A stretch of 64,000 bases of DNA from Synechococcus sp. PCC 6312 (GTDB lineage Bacteria; Cyanobacteriota; Cyanobacteriia; Thermosynechococcales; Thermosynechococcaceae): assembly GCF_000316685.1 (NCBI RefSeq), contig NC_019680.1:1427501-1491500 (forward strand). The letters run 5' to 3'. Position 1 is the first letter of the stretch, and every line of letters begins with the position of its first letter. The position numbers were made by a program, and so were the translations under genes. Below the pieces are notes generated by a model, which worked only from the letters and a program-made list of their open reading frames with translations, did not search any database and had not been told where the DNA came from. Below, in pieces: positions 46,846-54,939 of the stretch.

Positions 46846-46985
46846 AAAAATTTCTTCGTGCGGGGCTAACACTGGCATTATCTCAGAGATTTCTGACTGG
46901 TGGCTTTAGTTGCTGGCGATACTGCTTTTTATTAAATAATTCTCTGGTAGCCCGCCGCCCTACAATAGAGAATGCCTTAGGGCCT

Positions 46986-47072
46986 GGAGAGGTGGCAGAG
47001 TGGTCGAATGCGGCAGACTCGAAATCTGTTGAAGGGTCACACCTTCCGGGGGTTCGAATCCCCCCCTCTCCG
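46986..47072 (+). tRNA. tRNA-Ser (anticodon CGA)
   Basis: An 87-nt class II tRNA with acceptor stem GGAGAGG/CCTCTCC, anticodon loop CTCGAAA (anticodon CGA), a long variable arm (GTTGAAGGGTCACACCTTCC region), and T-loop GGTTCGAATCC. CCA is not encoded. Confidence 0.95.
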
Positions 47073-47356
47073 TAGAGTGCGGACTATTTTGGTTATTGAC
47101 CAATTTTGTCCGAAAAGATTGTGATTAAAATCACACCCAGGCCTGGTTCAGTCACAGATAATTAAGGGCTGACGCCTTCTTAATGGCTCCATAATCTTTC
47201 TTTGGATTTTATTCAATGTTACGAATTTGTATCAAACTAGCAACTTGTGCAAATTTTTTGTATGGGAGTGTTCAGAATGGAAGTATTTCCGGTGTGTTTT
47301 TTGGCTGATTGACAGAATTGAGTCCAGTTTATTGATTTCCCAAGGTTGATGTTCTA
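47073..47356 (+). promoter_or_regulatory. hpsA upstream region
   Basis: A 284-bp region between tRNA-Ser and hpsA. Besides the CRP box it is AT-rich. AAGGT lies ~10 nt before the hpsA ATG. No obvious sigma70 pair or terminator was identified. It contains one CCAGGCCTGG palindrome at 47137-47146. Confidence 0.5.
47120..47135. promoter_or_regulatory. Perfect CRP-type operator upstream of hpsA
   Basis: TGTGATTAAAATCACA is an exact TGTGA-N6-TCACA palindrome, the consensus of E. coli CRP and of the cyanobacterial SYCRP1 factor. It lies 221 nt upstream of the hpsA ATG and 48 nt after tRNA-Ser. cAMP/SYCRP1 is known to control pilus and motility genes in Synechocystis, so control of this pseudopilin operon is plausible. 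Confidence 0.6.
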
Positions 47357-50300
47357 ATGAGTAAGCGTAATGACCGATTTGGCCTGAGCAAGCGTACCTA
47401 TCGTAAGTTAATGGGGACGTTACGCCATCTGTTTCGGCAGCTCGGCCAGTGGATGCGGCGGCGGCTCAAGGGCGGTCAACGCCAAAATCAACGGGGATTG
47501 CGTTTAGGGCGAGCGAGAGGATTTGTGTTACCGACGGCGGTTCTCGTAATTTTAGTTGTGACAATTACTGTTGGAGCGCTCTTAATTCGGAGCTTAAATC
47601 GGACAACCCAGGTTTCTGGACAACGTCAGGACTTAGAGGTGGTAAACCAGGCCACGCCAGCCATTGAACGAGCTAAATCAAAACTGGAATATTTATTTAG
47701 GGTTGATCCTCGCCTACCCCAAGGGATTCCGGGCCAAGATTTGCTCCGAGAGATTATGCGGGACAACCCAGAATATACCCTTACAGGTGAGACCCGGATT
47801 GATATAAATGGGGATGGCACTCTCGATAATGCTTGGTATTTTATTCCTACTGATGACCCTAGCTCAGTCATTGCCTATTCAATTACAGTTGGTCGGCCTT
47901 CAGATACTCAACTCAATCAAACCGATGCCCAAAAAGCAGCAGCCTTAGTGACTCGGAGTCGTCCCCTACGCACCTCGGCGGAAGGGGCCGGAGAATGCTC
48001 AGTTTCGACGGAAGTTGGGGCTGGTTTGGGGACAGGGGCAGGCTGGGATAAAATTACCTCCCAAGTTCGCAAGAACTTTCAGATTGATGCCTTTGTCTTT
48101 ACTGAGCGCGGAGGTGGGCGGGCCTTGGCAACCGTGGAAACCATGCAGGAACGCCGCTATGAACAAGGGAATAAATGGGGAGCTTGGTTCAGAAATGATT
48201 TAGAAATCTTTCCCGGCCCGGCCTTTAACTGGAATGGGGCGATGCACTCAGAAGGTAGTGTTTACATGGGGGGAGGTAGTAGCTTTTCCGCATATCTTGT
48301 CAGCGCGCCAAAATCTTGTATTTATTCTCGGGATTCTTCAGAAATTACAGTTCCCGGTAGCCTAGATGATTCGACCAAATTTTTGGGCCAGTTTATCAAT
48401 GGTACCTTACGGGACAACAACTATAACGGCACAACGGTTGTTCACTCTATTGGTGCTGGTGATGGTCTAATTACCTCTGGAGATGCCAATCCGCCGGCCC
48501 AAAATGTGACTTATACAGCCGCTCGTGACTCAGTTAACCCTGGGGGGCGGACGGCGGCTTCTATTGCCTTAAACCCCGTCAAAATTATTACGGAAGATGT
48601 GAGTGTTTCCCGCTCTAGTGGAGATTTACTGAACCAGGCCATCAAGGACTCTGCTTGGCCGACCCAATACTACACTCAGTACAAGCGTCTTTACAATGAT
48701 GACAGTGACAAGCCCTATGTGGATGATACTTACCGGGCTGATAATCGCTATGGGCCTAAGCCGGTTTATGGAAAGGATCTCAATACCCCTGATCCAGATT
48801 TAAGAATTCCCTCTGGCTCTGTGGTGGGTGAGTTAATCCCCGGTACGAATTGGAAGCTTCTAACGGATACTCCCTACAATGATCCGGACGATGCGGCCGA
48901 TGACAACAAACCCAAGGAAGAAATTGGCTTGGATGGTTACTGGGAACGCCGGGCCAGAGCTGAGGGGTTGCGATTAATCGTTGGACAACGGTTGGAAGTT
49001 GGTAAGCCCTTAGATATTCCCAATGCCTGGACAACTGGGCGGGCCAATGAATTTATGCAACATCGGGCTTTGCGGGATAATTTGGCGGCAGTGCAAGGAA
49101 CGGTGCTTTATCACTACAAGGGGGTGGGGGCTGTAACAGGCGCGGCTACGGCAGATTCAACTCTCTCTGATCCGATTGGGGGGTCTTATACTAACAACAC
49201 CACAGGCGGTTATGCGCCGATGGCCTGTATTGCTAGTACGCATCACGGCGGTACACCCCAAACCCACTTGCGGAGTATTCGCTTTAATGAATATCGGGGT
49301 GTTACGGGAATTACAGACACGGTTTTCCCTGACTTTTTAACCGGCCGTGGTACAGATGGCTGGGAATTTAACCCGCCGAGCATCAACACGAATATGTTGC
49401 AGGCCCTCACCAACCTGACCAGTTTTTCGGCAGATCGTTCCATCAGTGGTTCTCGGTATATGGGGGCATTCCCACCTGTCCAAGAGGCAGCGGGGGGCAC
49501 AGTGCATCCCAACTTTGCCAATATTACCCACGGCGACTTTTCTAATCTCTATCGGGCCTTACAGTTGGGGGATATTTCTACCCTCAGCATGGCGGATCAA
49601 TCTTACATCCAGTCAGCAGCCTGTGGTGTGGGAATGTTAGCCTACAATCTTGATATTTTACAAGGGCCGGATAACACCAACACAACTGCTGATGACTTTT
49701 ACACAACGACCTTGGGTAACGGAACTGGTAGTCAGCTTCTAAACCTTGATTCCAATGCCACTGCATCGAGTACAGATCGGGGTGTGCCTCTGCTTTTTGA
49801 TGGATTGATTGCATCCAATAACCCGGAAGCTAGGGCCAGTATTGATGCCAGCGGTCGCCCAGTGCTGACGTTGAGACGACAAGGGATTAGTACTAATCTA
49901 GCTACCAGTTCTGGCTATTCTCCAGCAGAGAGGTATGTGAGCGGGTTAGTTTCCGACTGGGCAGCCCGGCCAGGGACAACTGGGGTAATTGCTAATGAAC
50001 AAAACAACACTCGTTTAGCCCGACTTGTGGCTATTCGTGAGCAAGCCGCCTACGACCTCAATCCTACTAGTTACCAGTGTGGTATTCCCGCTGATCGCCC
50101 GAATTTACGGACTCTATTCTGTTTAGGAGAAGTTGGGGCAGCCGGATCAGGGAATGCTGTGGGGTATAACGCAACCAATAAAGCCACTTGGTTGCCCGGA
50201 AAATTTGGAGCAGTGATCACCAGTGCAACTACACCTGTTGCCAGTGCCTTTCGATCCACGATTACGATTGCGGCCAATGATTCAAACTTGAACTATAACT

Positions 50301-52600
50301 ATGACTTAGCCTGGCTTGATCGGCTGGCACCTGGGGATTCTGTTTTTCTCAGTGGAAGAGGGGTTTATCCCTTTGTCAGTTGGAACTCGGCGACTCGTCA
50401 GTTAGTTGTAGATGCTGCTACCACTAGCCCCATCCTGGAAATTGGGCAGTTCGGTGCGTCAAACACAACAGGGGGCTACAGTGGAGCTTTTGCTTGGAGT
50501 AGCTTACCAACTGGGGTTACGGTTACGCCAGGGTTCACCTTTAACTACAATGGAGCAGCCACTTCTTACACAGCTACTTCTGGTGCAGTTAATATTCCTG
50601 TAGCTCGGATCAATCGAGATCTGTTGCCTAGTAGCCTGCAAAGTGCTGATACTCTCAATCAATATCGAGTTGGTTTTCGGATTAGTGGCACAAACTATAT
50701 TGGCGTAGTTACTGCATCTCCAACGGGTAGTGGAAACTTGACAATCAGCGATATCCGCAATACATCGGGTACTCTTTCTAATCCAACCTTTCCCAACAGT
50801 GGAACAATCCCAATTGCCTTGATTGAGGCTCCTTCCCCCGCCGGAAGTACCAGTACCAACCGCTTACCTCTTTACACCTTCAATACTGCTCGCAAATATA
50901 CGGCACTCCAACCCTTGTTTAATCCCCCTGGTGGCACAGCGGTAAACCCCAACGACATTGCCGCCTCCCCTCGCGCCATCGGTTCTTGGGTAACGCCAAC
51001 CAGTACAGCTACCGCTCTGACGACCTACAACCAAATTGTTGGCCCGGCAGCAGCGGATCAGGTCTATAACGTAGCTTTCCTGGATAACACCATGTTCAAT
51101 GGCCGGGAAGAGATGGCTGTGCGAACGATGGATATCAACTTGGGTATGCTGCGGGGAGCAACCATTGGCGGTGATACCTGGCTGCCGATGAGTGGAATGG
51201 TTTACGCCTTCCGAGAAGATGCCCTCCGAGAAGATGGGATTGCTCGGCCAGCGGGAACTTGGATGAATGCAGCGGCGAACCCAGGCACAGATCCAACCCT
51301 AGCAACCTTTGGGATTTCCATTAAACCTGTGGATTTCTTTGCTGATCCGATGCGCCGTCCCCATGGGTTCCGTTTACGGAATGGGATTCGAGTAGATCGC
51401 TCCGGGATTGCTGCCTCCAAAAACATTCGGGGCCTGACCTTTATAAGTGATAACCCAGCTTACATTCAAGGGGATTTTAATTGGCATAGCACGAATGGGA
51501 CGAATGCAGAAGGCAACCGGATCGAAGAGTTTACCCAAAAGCTGCCCACAGGTAGTTTGTATAACGTAACCGAGTTTTATACGAATCGAACCACTCGAAA
51601 CACTAACTTTGCCCGGCCGACAACGGACACCTGGCGACCAACGGAAGTTTTAGCGGATGCCGTCTCCATTATTTCTCAAGACTTCTGTCCAGGAACAGCC
51701 AATGATTACTTTGCTGAGGCCTACAATCTGACAGTGGTCAACTTGGCAGCAAACTCCCCGGAAAACTTAGTGACTACCTATCCCAAAAGTGGCACCGGAA
51801 CAGGGGAGGTAGTGAATAATACTGGGACAGGCAACCGAGTTTATTTGCAGTGCAATAATAATACTAATAACTTAGTCACTTCATTTCTGAACTCTAATCG
51901 TCCTAGGGGTGATGGGACAGAAGGAACTGCAACTGGTGGCTTACCTGTTAATAATGTTTGGCTGCGGGAAGATCCCTTTGATCCTAGTACTCCGGTTTAC
52001 ATCAATTCCAACGGGCTACCTTTGCAGGTAGATTACACCACGGGCCTGTGGAATACCTTTACGAATGCCACTGGCTCTTGGTGGAATGCCTTTACTGGCA
52101 GTAATGGCCGTAACGCTGGGGGTGTGCAAGATACGCGGGTTAATGCGGTGATTATTAGTGCGACAGTGGCCTCCCGGCCTGGGCAGTCCTATGGTGGAAT
52201 GCACAACTTCCCCCGCTTTCTCCAAGGCTGGGGAAACCTTTGGATTTCTGGCTCCTTCTTGCAACTCAACTTCTCCACCCAGGCCACAGGCCCCTTTGAC
52301 CAGGATCAATGGGAGTCAAGTTCTGGCGTACCTGCTTTAACGGCCTACAACGTGGCGGGGGATGAGGGTAATGAACGCATTAACTATTACGGTGCACCGA
52401 CACGGCGTTGGGGATATGACCCAGGCTTACAGTTAGCTCCAGCCGGACCTGTGGCGGAACGGTTCTTGCGTAAACTCAACTCCCGAAGTGTTTTCTTTAA
52501 TGAATTACCAGCCAACGATCCCTATATTCTTAACCTCCGATGTGCCTCCCGTTCTGGTGGTGGCCGAATTGACCCAACGGTGACTGGATGTCCAACCTAG
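47357..52600 (+). CDS. hpsA: Hormogonium polysaccharide biosynthesis protein HpsA
   Basis: A 1747-residue HpsA homologue. A basic N-terminus leads to a pilin-like membrane helix beginning GFVLPTAVLVILVVTI (Gly55-Phe56). It lacks the Glu at +5 of classical pilins (Thr60 instead). A very long Asn/Thr/Gly-rich, beta-type extracellular part follows. In Nostoc punctiforme hpsA is the lead gene of an operon needed for secreted polysaccharide and gliding. Here it heads a pseudopilin operon behind a CRP box. The gene is poor in the genomic heptamer; none occurs from ~48.64 to 52.17 kb. Confidence 0.88.
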   Translation: MSKRNDRFGLSKRTYRKLMGTLRHLFRQLGQWMRRRLKGGQRQNQRGLRLGRARGFVLPTAVLVILVVTITVGALLIRSLNRTTQVSGQRQDLEVVNQATPAIERAKSKLEYLFRVDPRLPQGIPGQDLLREIMRDNPEYTLTGETRIDINGDGTLDNAWYFIPTDDPSSVIAYSITVGRPSDTQLNQTDAQKAAALVTRSRPLRTSAEGAGECSVSTEVGAGLGTGAGWDKITSQVRKNFQIDAFVFTERGGGRALATVETMQERRYEQGNKWGAWFRNDLEIFPGPAFNWNGAMHSEGSVYMGGGSSFSAYLVSAPKSCIYSRDSSEITVPGSLDDSTKFLGQFINGTLRDNNYNGTTVVHSIGAGDGLITSGDANPPAQNVTYTAARDSVNPGGRTAASIALNPVKIITEDVSVSRSSGDLLNQAIKDSAWPTQYYTQYKRLYNDDSDKPYVDDTYRADNRYGPKPVYGKDLNTPDPDLRIPSGSVVGELIPGTNWKLLTDTPYNDPDDAADDNKPKEEIGLDGYWERRARAEGLRLIVGQRLEVGKPLDIPNAWTTGRANEFMQHRALRDNLAAVQGTVLYHYKGVGAVTGAATADSTLSDPIGGSYTNNTTGGYAPMACIASTHHGGTPQTHLRSIRFNEYRGVTGITDTVFPDFLTGRGTDGWEFNPPSINTNMLQALTNLTSFSADRSISGSRYMGAFPPVQEAAGGTVHPNFANITHGDFSNLYRALQLGDISTLSMADQSYIQSAACGVGMLAYNLDILQGPDNTNTTADDFYTTTLGNGTGSQLLNLDSNATASSTDRGVPLLFDGLIASNNPEARASIDASGRPVLTLRRQGISTNLATSSGYSPAERYVSGLVSDWAARPGTTGVIANEQNNTRLARLVAIREQAAYDLNPTSYQCGIPADRPNLRTLFCLGEVGAAGSGNAVGYNATNKATWLPGKFGAVITSATTPVASAFRSTITIAANDSNLNYNYDLAWLDRLAPGDSVFLSGRGVYPFVSWNSATRQLVVDAATTSPILEIGQFGASNTTGGYSGAFAWSSLPTGVTVTPGFTFNYNGAATSYTATSGAVNIPVARINRDLLPSSLQSADTLNQYRVGFRISGTNYIGVVTASPTGSGNLTISDIRNTSGTLSNPTFPNSGTIPIALIEAPSPAGSTSTNRLPLYTFNTARKYTALQPLFNPPGGTAVNPNDIAASPRAIGSWVTPTSTATALTTYNQIVGPAAADQVYNVAFLDNTMFNGREEMAVRTMDINLGMLRGATIGGDTWLPMSGMVYAFREDALREDGIARPAGTWMNAAANPGTDPTLATFGISIKPVDFFADPMRRPHGFRLRNGIRVDRSGIAASKNIRGLTFISDNPAYIQGDFNWHSTNGTNAEGNRIEEFTQKLPTGSLYNVTEFYTNRTTRNTNFARPTTDTWRPTEVLADAVSIISQDFCPGTANDYFAEAYNLTVVNLAANSPENLVTTYPKSGTGTGEVVNNTGTGNRVYLQCNNNTNNLVTSFLNSNRPRGDGTEGTATGGLPVNNVWLREDPFDPSTPVYINSNGLPLQVDYTTGLWNTFTNATGSWWNAFTGSNGRNAGGVQDTRVNAVIISATVASRPGQSYGGMHNFPRFLQGWGNLWISGSFLQLNFSTQATGPFDQDQWESSSGVPALTAYNVAGDEGNERINYYGAPTRRWGYDPGLQLAPAGPVAERFLRKLNSRSVFFNELPANDPYILNLRCASRSGGGRIDPTVTGCPT

Positions 52601-52617
52601 CTCGCAGGACAGTCGTT

Positions 52618-53313
52618 ATGAGCATTTTTCCAACGAATCGGGGTTCACGGTTTTGGCTGCGTCATCACGGCCTCACCATGGCCGAAGCCCTGGTAGCTGT
52701 TATCATCACCAATGCTTTGATTGCGTTTTTACCCCCTGTCGTGCTGATGCTCCAGGCCACCCGAGTTCAAAATGAACGCATTGAGCAAGCTACAACTGTT
52801 GCCCAAGGGGAAATAGATGACGTTGGGGTAAAGGTTGCGACCCTCTCCAGCGACACTACACTTTTTACCACGGATGCAGCGTTTCGGGCCGTCTTACCCC
52901 CTACTGTAACGGGTAGTCTGGATGCCCAAGCCCCACCCACTTCAATTCAAAATTGTTCAGGGATGCCCTCTAGTCCTTCGGTCGGCTGTATTCGTACCCT
53001 TGGTCGTCATGAATATGTTGTCCAACAGTTTCGTACTTCCGGTGTTGCCCGCAGAGACTTTAGTAATTTTGATATGCAAGTTAGGGTTTATAGTCGGCGG
53101 CTATGGCAGGGAATGGGCGGGCCTGTGACAACTGATCCGGCAACACCTTTAACGGCTGCACTGACTGCATCACCGGAGGCCAGTCGCCGTGCTTTGGTTG
53201 TCCTGACGACTAACATTATCAAAGGCAGTTTTTGTCAAGCCACAGACACCTCTACCAGTGATCTGCGTTGCTTAATCCAAGAACCAAGCCCCTCTCCCAG
53301 TCCTTCGCCTTAG
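52618..53313 (+). CDS. hpsB: Pseudopilin HpsB
   Basis: A 231-residue type IV pseudopilin-like protein. The prepilin-peptidase site is HHG(18)-LTMAEAL, with Glu at +5, followed by a hydrophobic helix. The rest is a soluble domain with four cysteines and a Pro/Ser-rich tail (SPSPSPSP). ATG 52618 has AGGA 8 nt upstream; the earlier ATG at 52588 overlaps hpsA by 13 bases. Second gene of the hps-type operon. Confidence 0.85.
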   Translation: MSIFPTNRGSRFWLRHHGLTMAEALVAVIITNALIAFLPPVVLMLQATRVQNERIEQATTVAQGEIDDVGVKVATLSSDTTLFTTDAAFRAVLPPTVTGSLDAQAPPTSIQNCSGMPSSPSVGCIRTLGRHEYVVQQFRTSGVARRDFSNFDMQVRVYSRRLWQGMGGPVTTDPATPLTAALTASPEASRRALVVLTTNIIKGSFCQATDTSTSDLRCLIQEPSPSPSPSP

Positions 53314-53321
53314 GATAGTTT

Positions 53322-54365
53322 ATGAAGCCTAAATCCAAACTATCTCGCTTCCCTTACGGAGTAAAACAGAAACGGCTCCTAGGTTTTACTCTGGTTGAAT
53401 TATTGGTTGCCTTGGTGATTGGGGTACTTATTACTGTCACCCTCGGCTCAATTTTGGTTAATATCCTCAGTGATGATGTGCGTCAAACTTCCCAAACTGA
53501 GGTGGAGCAAGATATTCAGTCAACCCTGAACTATGTAACTTCGGATTTAGGTCAGGCCGTTTACGTCTATGACGGTAGCTGCTTACAAGGACAAGGGACT
53601 ACTAGTGATGCCAACTTCTGTCCAGGCCTGGTGAATCATATTCCCAACTTTGGGACTAATATTTATCCTGTTTTGGCGATGTGGGTGCTGGATTTAGTAC
53701 CCTACTTTGGGATTACGGGGCAGATTCCTACCACTTGCCCATCAGGAGCATTGCAAGTAGATTGCCAAAACCTCCAGAGTGCCCGGAGAGCCTATACGTT
53801 AGTTGTTTATTACATGGATACTAGTACCAGTGCTGACTTTACAGGCCCGGCCCGGTTGCGGCGGTACGTGCTTCGTAAATATGCAACCCTAACTTCATCT
53901 AGCCTTTCCTTAACTACGGGCTATGTGGATCCCTTTCCGGCTACGGCTGGTTCAGCATTTTTTCGGCGCTGGCCCTACGATGGCAACAACACCAACCAAC
54001 AAGCAACAGCCCCTTCGGCTAGCTTGGCGTTGGCCCCAGTGGTCGCAGATTATGTTGACGGCAACTTGGCCTCCTTAGGGGCAACCCCGGTTGCGTGCCG
54101 AACCAACTATGTGCGGACTCCCTTAGCTTCGGTTACTGGCCAAGTGAACAGTTTTTATGCCTGTGTTTTGAACCGCTCTGATACGGCAGCAAGTGGTTCA
54201 ACCTCAACAGATGCCGGGGTTGGCAAAAATACCTCTACCTTTGTTTACTTACGGGGAAATACCCAAGGCAAACCAGGGTTCACCTCCCCCAATTCCGGGG
54301 TTCGCCCGGTTGTTACAGCTATTATCCTCAGTAAAGGTGTTTCTGATAACAATCCATACGATTAG
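53322..54365 (+). CDS. hpsC: Pseudopilin HpsC
   Basis: A 347-residue type IV pseudopilin-like protein: cleavage site LLG(21)-FTLVELL with canonical Glu at +5 and a hydrophobic helix, then a large soluble domain with several cysteines and aromatic residues (SDLGQAVYVYDGSCLQG). Such large pseudopilins resemble GspJ/HpsC and may sit at the fibre tip. It starts 8 nt after hpsB. Confidence 0.85.
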   Translation: MKPKSKLSRFPYGVKQKRLLGFTLVELLVALVIGVLITVTLGSILVNILSDDVRQTSQTEVEQDIQSTLNYVTSDLGQAVYVYDGSCLQGQGTTSDANFCPGLVNHIPNFGTNIYPVLAMWVLDLVPYFGITGQIPTTCPSGALQVDCQNLQSARRAYTLVVYYMDTSTSADFTGPARLRRYVLRKYATLTSSSLSLTTGYVDPFPATAGSAFFRRWPYDGNNTNQQATAPSASLALAPVVADYVDGNLASLGATPVACRTNYVRTPLASVTGQVNSFYACVLNRSDTAASGSTSTDAGVGKNTSTFVYLRGNTQGKPGFTSPNSGVRPVVTAIILSKGVSDNNPYD

Positions 54366-54399: not shown

Positions 54400-54939
54400 A
54401 TGACTTCTCTGTTATCTAAACGTCATCATGCGGGTTTCTCCTCTGCCGAAATTTTCGTCATTGTGGCAATCATTGCAATTATGGCAGCAATTGGGATTCC
54501 CAGTTGGTTGGGTTTTCTGAGTAACCAGCGAATGCGAGTAGCCCAATCCGGTGCTGTTTCTGCAATTCGTCTAGCCCAGGCAGGGGCGCGCCGAGAAAAA
54601 TTACCTTGGACGGTGGCATTTCGGACGAATAACAATCGGGTTCAATGGACAGCCAATCGCTCTACAACCCCGGTCACAGATTGGAATTGGACAGACTTAA
54701 CAGGAGATAGTGCCAATCAGATTCAAATTAGTACCACGGCCACTAACTTCACCCTAGCAACTGGCACATATCAATATACCTTTGAGTACAATGGTCAGGT
54801 CAGTGCTGGAAATACGGTTCCGGGCCGGATTACGTTTCAACCCCGTGAAGGTAATTTAACCGCTAGTCAGCGTTGTGTGAGGGTTGTAACCTTGTTGGGC
54901 GCCATTCGCTTAGACAAAGGTACGGCTTGCAGTAGTTAG
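54400..54939 (+). CDS. Type IV pilin-like protein (GspH/HpsD type)
   Basis: A 179-residue pseudopilin: leader MTSLLSKRHHAG(12)-FSSAEIFV with Glu at +5, a helix IVAIIAIMAAIGIPSWLGF that is typical of GspH/FimT proteins, and a beta-rich C-terminal domain with two Cys near the end. Fourth gene of the operon, 34 nt after hpsC. The hps operon of Nostoc also carries a fourth pseudopilin (hpsD), but orthology was not established. Confidence 0.82.
   Translation: MTSLLSKRHHAGFSSAEIFVIVAIIAIMAAIGIPSWLGFLSNQRMRVAQSGAVSAIRLAQAGARREKLPWTVAFRTNNNRVQWTANRSTTPVTDWNWTDLTGDSANQIQISTTATNFTLATGTYQYTFEYNGQVSAGNTVPGRITFQPREGNLTASQRCVRVVTLLGAIRLDKGTACSS

Follow-up and report, generated by a model that had tools for sequence, protein, structure and literature searches.

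Does cAMP, through a regulator of the CRP family, control a pseudopilin operon in Synechococcus sp. PCC 6312? The question is raised by a short palindrome in a 64-kb stretch of its genome (64,000 nucleotides; hereafter the window), where an earlier note, made from the letters alone, had pointed to an exact TGTGA-N6-TCACA consensus in front of the hpsABC genes. The match is indeed present: the putative operator TGTGATTAAAATCACA occupies positions 47120-47135 on the plus strand and is the only occurrence of the motif without mismatch in the window. We consider it likely that this box is a CRP site of the SyCRP1 type, belonging to a class II promoter at which cAMP-CRP would activate hpsA-hpsB-hpsC. 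Our statements on the whole genome, which measures 3.72 Mb in two contigs, come from pattern and family searches and from chosen stretches.

The hpsA locus

The box lies in the gap of 283 bp between the end of tRNA-Ser(cga), found by ARAGORN on the plus strand at 46985-47073, and the ATG of hpsA at 47357. Between the tRNA gene and the box there is also an inverted repeat of 33 bp, CGGACTATTTTGGTTATTGACCAATTTTGTCCG (47080-47112), which was not reported by repeat finding; it forms a hairpin in the predicted RNA, is present in a single copy in the genome (a query with 47070-47140 matched itself alone), and could be the tRNA terminator or another operator.

The hpsA gene (47357-52600, plus strand), encoding a large pseudopilin-like protein of 1747 aa, passes the cut-off of NF038301 with 533 bits against 400, while hpsB and hpsC are recognisable but stay below the NCBIfam cut-offs. 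The hpsB-like pseudopilin gene (52588-53313, plus strand, 241 aa), whose start overlaps the end of hpsA, scores 56 bits with NF038303 (cut-off 150), and the hpsC-like one (53322-54365, plus strand, 347 aa), which also has an N_methyl match under the Pfam cut-off, scores 121.5 bits with NF038304 (cut-off 200); both proteins are therefore related to the curated families and lie outside them. A fourth ORF of the run in the ORF list (54400-54939, plus strand, 179 aa) has no Pfam family above cut-off and, judged by eye, a pilin-like hydrophobic N-terminus; it is probably part of the same operon as hpsA. We infer that the whole run would be read as one transcript.

Promoter geometry

The box would be placed where a class II activator acts, a point on which the earlier claim depended. 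The hexamer GATAAT (47157-47162, plus strand), which matches TATAAT in five of six positions, lies 21 bp 3' of the box. Taking GATAAT as −12 to −7, the predicted +1 is 47169 and the centre of the box is at −41.5, the class II position in E. coli, whose consensus sites at class II promoters provide a close likeness, although their target genes are unrelated and the start site here is a predicted one. Between 46980 and 47420 a plain sigma-70 scan for −35 and −10 elements gave no promoter on the plus strand, because such a scan demands a −35. Cyanobacterial CRP promoters are described with a −10-like box that follows the CRP site at about 22 bp (PMC2633013).

These features suggest a simple scheme, in which a rise in cAMP would lead CRP-cAMP to bind 47120-47135, the bound protein would adjoin RNA polymerase on the −10 at 47157-47162, and transcription would be activated from about 47169. 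Nearer to the ATG there is a proximal element, AAATTTTTT, with a −10-like stretch following it (47246-47281, plus strand), which may be a second promoter of hpsA and could even be the main one. CRP might bind the box and repress, or act at a distance on this proximal promoter, which would lie some 80-110 bp from the ATG. The element, with AAATTTTT and the −10-like stretch after it, aligns in four family members, and a similar stretch is seen in the printed upstream sequences of relatives that do not have the box. We regard repression or action at a distance as unlikely, though as the best of the alternatives, since a −10 stands at the class II distance from the box in the window and in three relatives, and the 14 sites described below are enriched for this distance.

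Upstream regions of hpsA in relatives

The family of the window was searched in 29 genomes, 13 of which match hpsA and 11 strongly, the genome of the window included. The core GTGA-N6-TCAC precedes hpsA in three of the ten strong relatives, as GGTGATATTGATCACA in L111, CGTGATCTGGGTCACT in L112 and CGTGATCTAAGTCACC in L114, at 235-297 bp before the gene. In all three a −10 matching four of six positions, weaker than the five of six in the window, is found at a spacer of exactly 21, with an equal score also at spacer 26 in L114. MAFFT left the boxes unaligned and spacings were measured site by site. The upstream neighbour of hpsA, tRNA-Ser in the window, is a protein gene in L111 and a different one common to L112 and L114; in the latter two a mechanically called minus-strand ORF with a TTG start runs over the box, which may thus touch the start of the neighbouring gene there. 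The other seven strong relatives have no box core ahead of hpsA, and their upstream DNA, judged from the printed sequence, resembles another gene.

A wider survey pooled named, phylum and family sets, giving 175 upstream regions, or 168 after those with identical last 60 bases were dropped; where two sets gave different start calls for one genome, that genome may count twice among the 168. Of the named loci, 74 of 80 were usable, the remaining six having no usable start or 150 bp upstream. The phylum set comprised 90 regions from 88 genomes; G000, which is the genome of the window, and four family genomes were counted in the other sets, and no use was made of G408, which had no N-terminal match, or of the second hpsA copy in each of G033 and G076. 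Some automatic starts are doubtful, for example those of L205, L221, L242, L247 and L252.

The core was found in 14 of the 168 regions (the window and 13 others) against 0.88 expected from base composition; each of the 11 other anagrams of the half-site occurs in 0-2 regions, and averaged over the 96 half-sites that contain two G or C the figure is 1.07 regions in the pooled set. The half-site CTGA-N6-TCAG is present in 10 of the 168 regions, perhaps by shared ancestry of a few genomes, and shared ancestry can therefore inflate counts of this kind; here kinship was corrected for only by removing identical ends and by a hand-chosen set with one site per group. Perfect sites precede hpsA in Aphanothece hegewaldii, Chroococcus sp. 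FPU101 and an uncultured cyanobacterium. Among the 74 named loci, three have perfect sites and seven have sites within one mismatch, against means of 0.14 and 1.07 for the other 29 half-site anagrams; when two mismatches are allowed, TGTGA no longer stands out (20 loci, anagram mean 13.9, maximum 25). The core is absent from 154 of the 168 regions, which counts against the CRP reading, and its distribution in the phylum set is uneven: 0 of 39 regions in f7, the most sampled family, 1 of 11 in f11, 1 of 4 in f15, 2 of 2 in f18, 1 of 1 in f22, and 0 of 33 in the rest.

The spacing to the −10 was also compared over the 14 sites together. Among spacers of 10-59 bp, their −10 match was best at 21-22, with a score of 3.93 (next 3.21, mean 2.57, sd 0.39). 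This score was reached by none of 20,000 shuffles with the 14 sites, by none of 20,000 with nine sites, one per group, and by 9 of 20,000 with eight sites, the window excluded; the tested spacer pair had been fixed after an earlier scan and the nine sites were hand-picked.

The candidate regulator and the cyclases

A regulator of the kind that the earlier note had presupposed is encoded in the genome. PF00027 has ten matches, five of them in proteins of CRP/FNR size, and one of these, L098 (C1:3255102-3255833, 244 aa), is a CRP homologue that has a cyclic-nucleotide-binding domain (PF00027) and a Crp helix-turn-helix (HTH_Crp_2, PF13545), both scoring over their cut-offs, as well as the R-E-x-x-x-R recognition motif. 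It is 28% identical to E. coli CRP and keeps the DNA-contact residues R180, E181 and R185 (E. coli numbering). Of the residues that contact cAMP in E. coli CRP it keeps G71, E72, R82 and S83, and it has L and N in place of T127 and S128, so its response to cAMP is not certain. Its best NCBIfam match, NF008732, reaches 80.8 bits with a cut-off of 266, and we therefore treat it as a CRP relative and not as the enterobacterial equivalog. The genome also encodes three proteins with the PF00211 cyclase domain, and the two checked are CHASE2- and FHA-cyclases.

Of the 29 family genomes, 25, among them its own, have an orthologue of L098 with at least 72% identity; in each of the 11 that match hpsA strongly, again counting that of the window, the identity is at least 82%. 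The seven close relatives without the box still keep CRP, as do all ten, the match in G028 crossing one stop codon. Across 386 genomes, CRP accompanies 87 of the 94 with HpsA and 22 of the 292 others, a co-occurrence to which we give little weight because it is uncorrected for phylogeny.

The box might be used by another CRP/FNR protein, since the genome encodes NtcA (L100) and two PtrA-related proteins, the latter pair below the PtrA cut-off, and the sites of this superfamily look alike. However, R-E-T-V-x-R is found in L098 only among the five proteins of CRP/FNR size, three having R-V and one having lost the motif, and NtcA and the PtrA-related pair carry V at position 181, where CRP has E. 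Moreover, NtcA sites are GTA-N8-TAC and the box reads GTG-N8-CAC, which makes use by NtcA or a PtrA-related protein improbable. The protein that has lost the motif, L097 (G000:C1:667094-667687), is a CRP paralogue with a cyclic-nucleotide domain; we tried it as a counterpart of SyCRP2 and rejected it, because its identity to the Crp/Fnr protein next to a Synechocystis-like pilA9 run is only 26% and because it has no recognition-helix motif.

Site counts and chance

The chance of such a match in one promoter gap, put at about 3e-4 in the earlier note, is in line with our shuffles: 100 dinucleotide shuffles gave on average 0.05 perfect sites per 64 kb, and about 2e-4 are expected in a gap of the size of that upstream of hpsA. 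Genome-wide, about three perfect sites are expected by chance and two were seen. An exact match is therefore not significant alone, and the case for a CRP site rests on context, namely the −10 geometry, the recurrence before hpsA and the presence of CRP and cyclase genes. A chance match is what the genome count alone would allow, but the position of the box, its spacing to the −10 and its recurrence before hpsA make this very improbable.

Neither of the two perfect sites is within a called ORF, and genes are thus not littered with the motif, in agreement with its reading as an operator. The second one, L128 (G000:C1:1893227-1893242), is located some 130 bp upstream of a DUF928 gene on the minus strand. 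Weaker forms of the site are mildly enriched genome-wide: allowing up to one mismatch, the motif occurs at 80 places and a reversed-pattern control at 45, and the 17 hits of TGTGA-N6-TCAC, in which two palindromes are counted twice, correspond to 15 distinct places, compared with 8 control hits. Seven of these 15 are outside mechanically called ORFs of at least 70 aa, two of the seven being only 23 bp apart; with ORFs of at least 100 aa covering 88% of the window, the binomial p is about 0.001, a rough value because the ORF limits differ (70 and 100 aa). Two CRP-like sites 23 bp apart (L132, G000:C1:2309679-2309717) stand directly before an ORF of 458 aa, which has no Pfam match.

Finally, the least probable reading takes the palindrome for a hairpin or terminator in RNA read on from tRNA-Ser, and although the predicted RNA folds there into a hairpin of 6 bp closed by a loop of 4 nt, we reject a terminator since no T-run follows, the sole terminator-like hit is elsewhere (47069-47083; shuffle mean 0.6) and the core also precedes hpsA where the upstream neighbour is a protein gene.

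Comparison with known systems

CRP control of pilin operons is already known from Synechocystis, pilA9-slr2018 being documented as a SyCRP1 target (PMC2633013, PMC7690835). The pilA9-pilA10-pilA11-slr2018 run of Synechocystis PCC 6803 resembles the hps operon as a pseudopilin run with one large protein and is under CRP control, which the hps operon would share, but its large gene is the last and that of the hps operon is the first. Two Slr2018-like proteins match NF038301 and no other NCBIfam family: that of L300 (719-3076, minus strand), with an E-value of 9e-15, is smaller than HpsA at 786 aa, and its 53 bits are far under the HpsA cut-off of 400; that of L303 (6422-8707, plus strand) has an E-value of 1e-10. 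To judge from these matches, the Slr2018-like large protein is a distant relative of HpsA.

Four genomes of genus g16 are Synechocystis-like, as judged from their genes, and three of them have a run like pilA9-pilA10-pilA11-slr2018. The published slr2018 primers have 2-3 mismatches in 20 positions in two of the g16 runs and the pilA9 primers 3-7; those for pilA10 and pilA11 have 5-7, no better than at an unrelated locus. Ahead of the pilA9 run only a site with two mismatches is found in L300 and L301, and L302 has AGTGAGCAAGATCACA about 400 bp upstream; in the genome of L303, CGTGATCTAGATCACA is located between two divergent pilin runs. The g16 genomes hold 15 perfect CRP sites, some within ORFs and others upstream of what we take to be slr1667-, slr0442- and murF-like genes. 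For the minor pilin gene slr0442 (PilX2), perfect sites are upstream in three of the four genomes; the two slr0442-like proteins scanned have no NCBIfam match, HpsA included, unlike hpsA here. In Synechocystis, Slr0442 is listed as PilX2 among the proteins under LexA or SyCRP1/2 control (PMC12313861) and is reported to be repressed when SyCRP1 or Hfq is missing (PMC4182526).

The hpsA-D genes of Nostoc punctiforme include the same hpsA-hpsB-hpsC genes in the same order, but their expression is described as dependent on sigJ and, to a lesser degree, on sigF (PMC6495340).

Implications

A CRP operator of class II form ahead of hpsA is, on the evidence of sequence and context, real and probably functional; binding, dependence on cAMP, activation over repression and the start site are what we infer in this preferred reading. 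The control of hps genes by cAMP would then probably reach beyond the species in which cAMP control is known. What is new here is the extension of a known CRP-type regulation to hpsA, a control that we did not find in the titles and abstract openings of the open-licence literature, and the proposed kinship of Slr2018-like proteins with HpsA. More tentatively, and in our view less likely than not, cAMP-CRP control of operons of the HpsA/PilX type might be old and recurrent in cyanobacteria, pilA9-slr2018 of Synechocystis being a remote counterpart of hps, and the lineages forming hormogonia might have swapped CRP for a sigma-factor cascade.

Blue light is described as raising cAMP in Synechocystis (PMC7690835), and the hps pseudopilin operon as one that may help to export polysaccharide (PMC6495340). 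Slr2018 has been described as being without clear homologues (PMC5924778), and the distant match to HpsA would give the Slr2018-like protein a family. The sites upstream of hpsA would link cAMP to a pseudopilin operon, and this link is testable.
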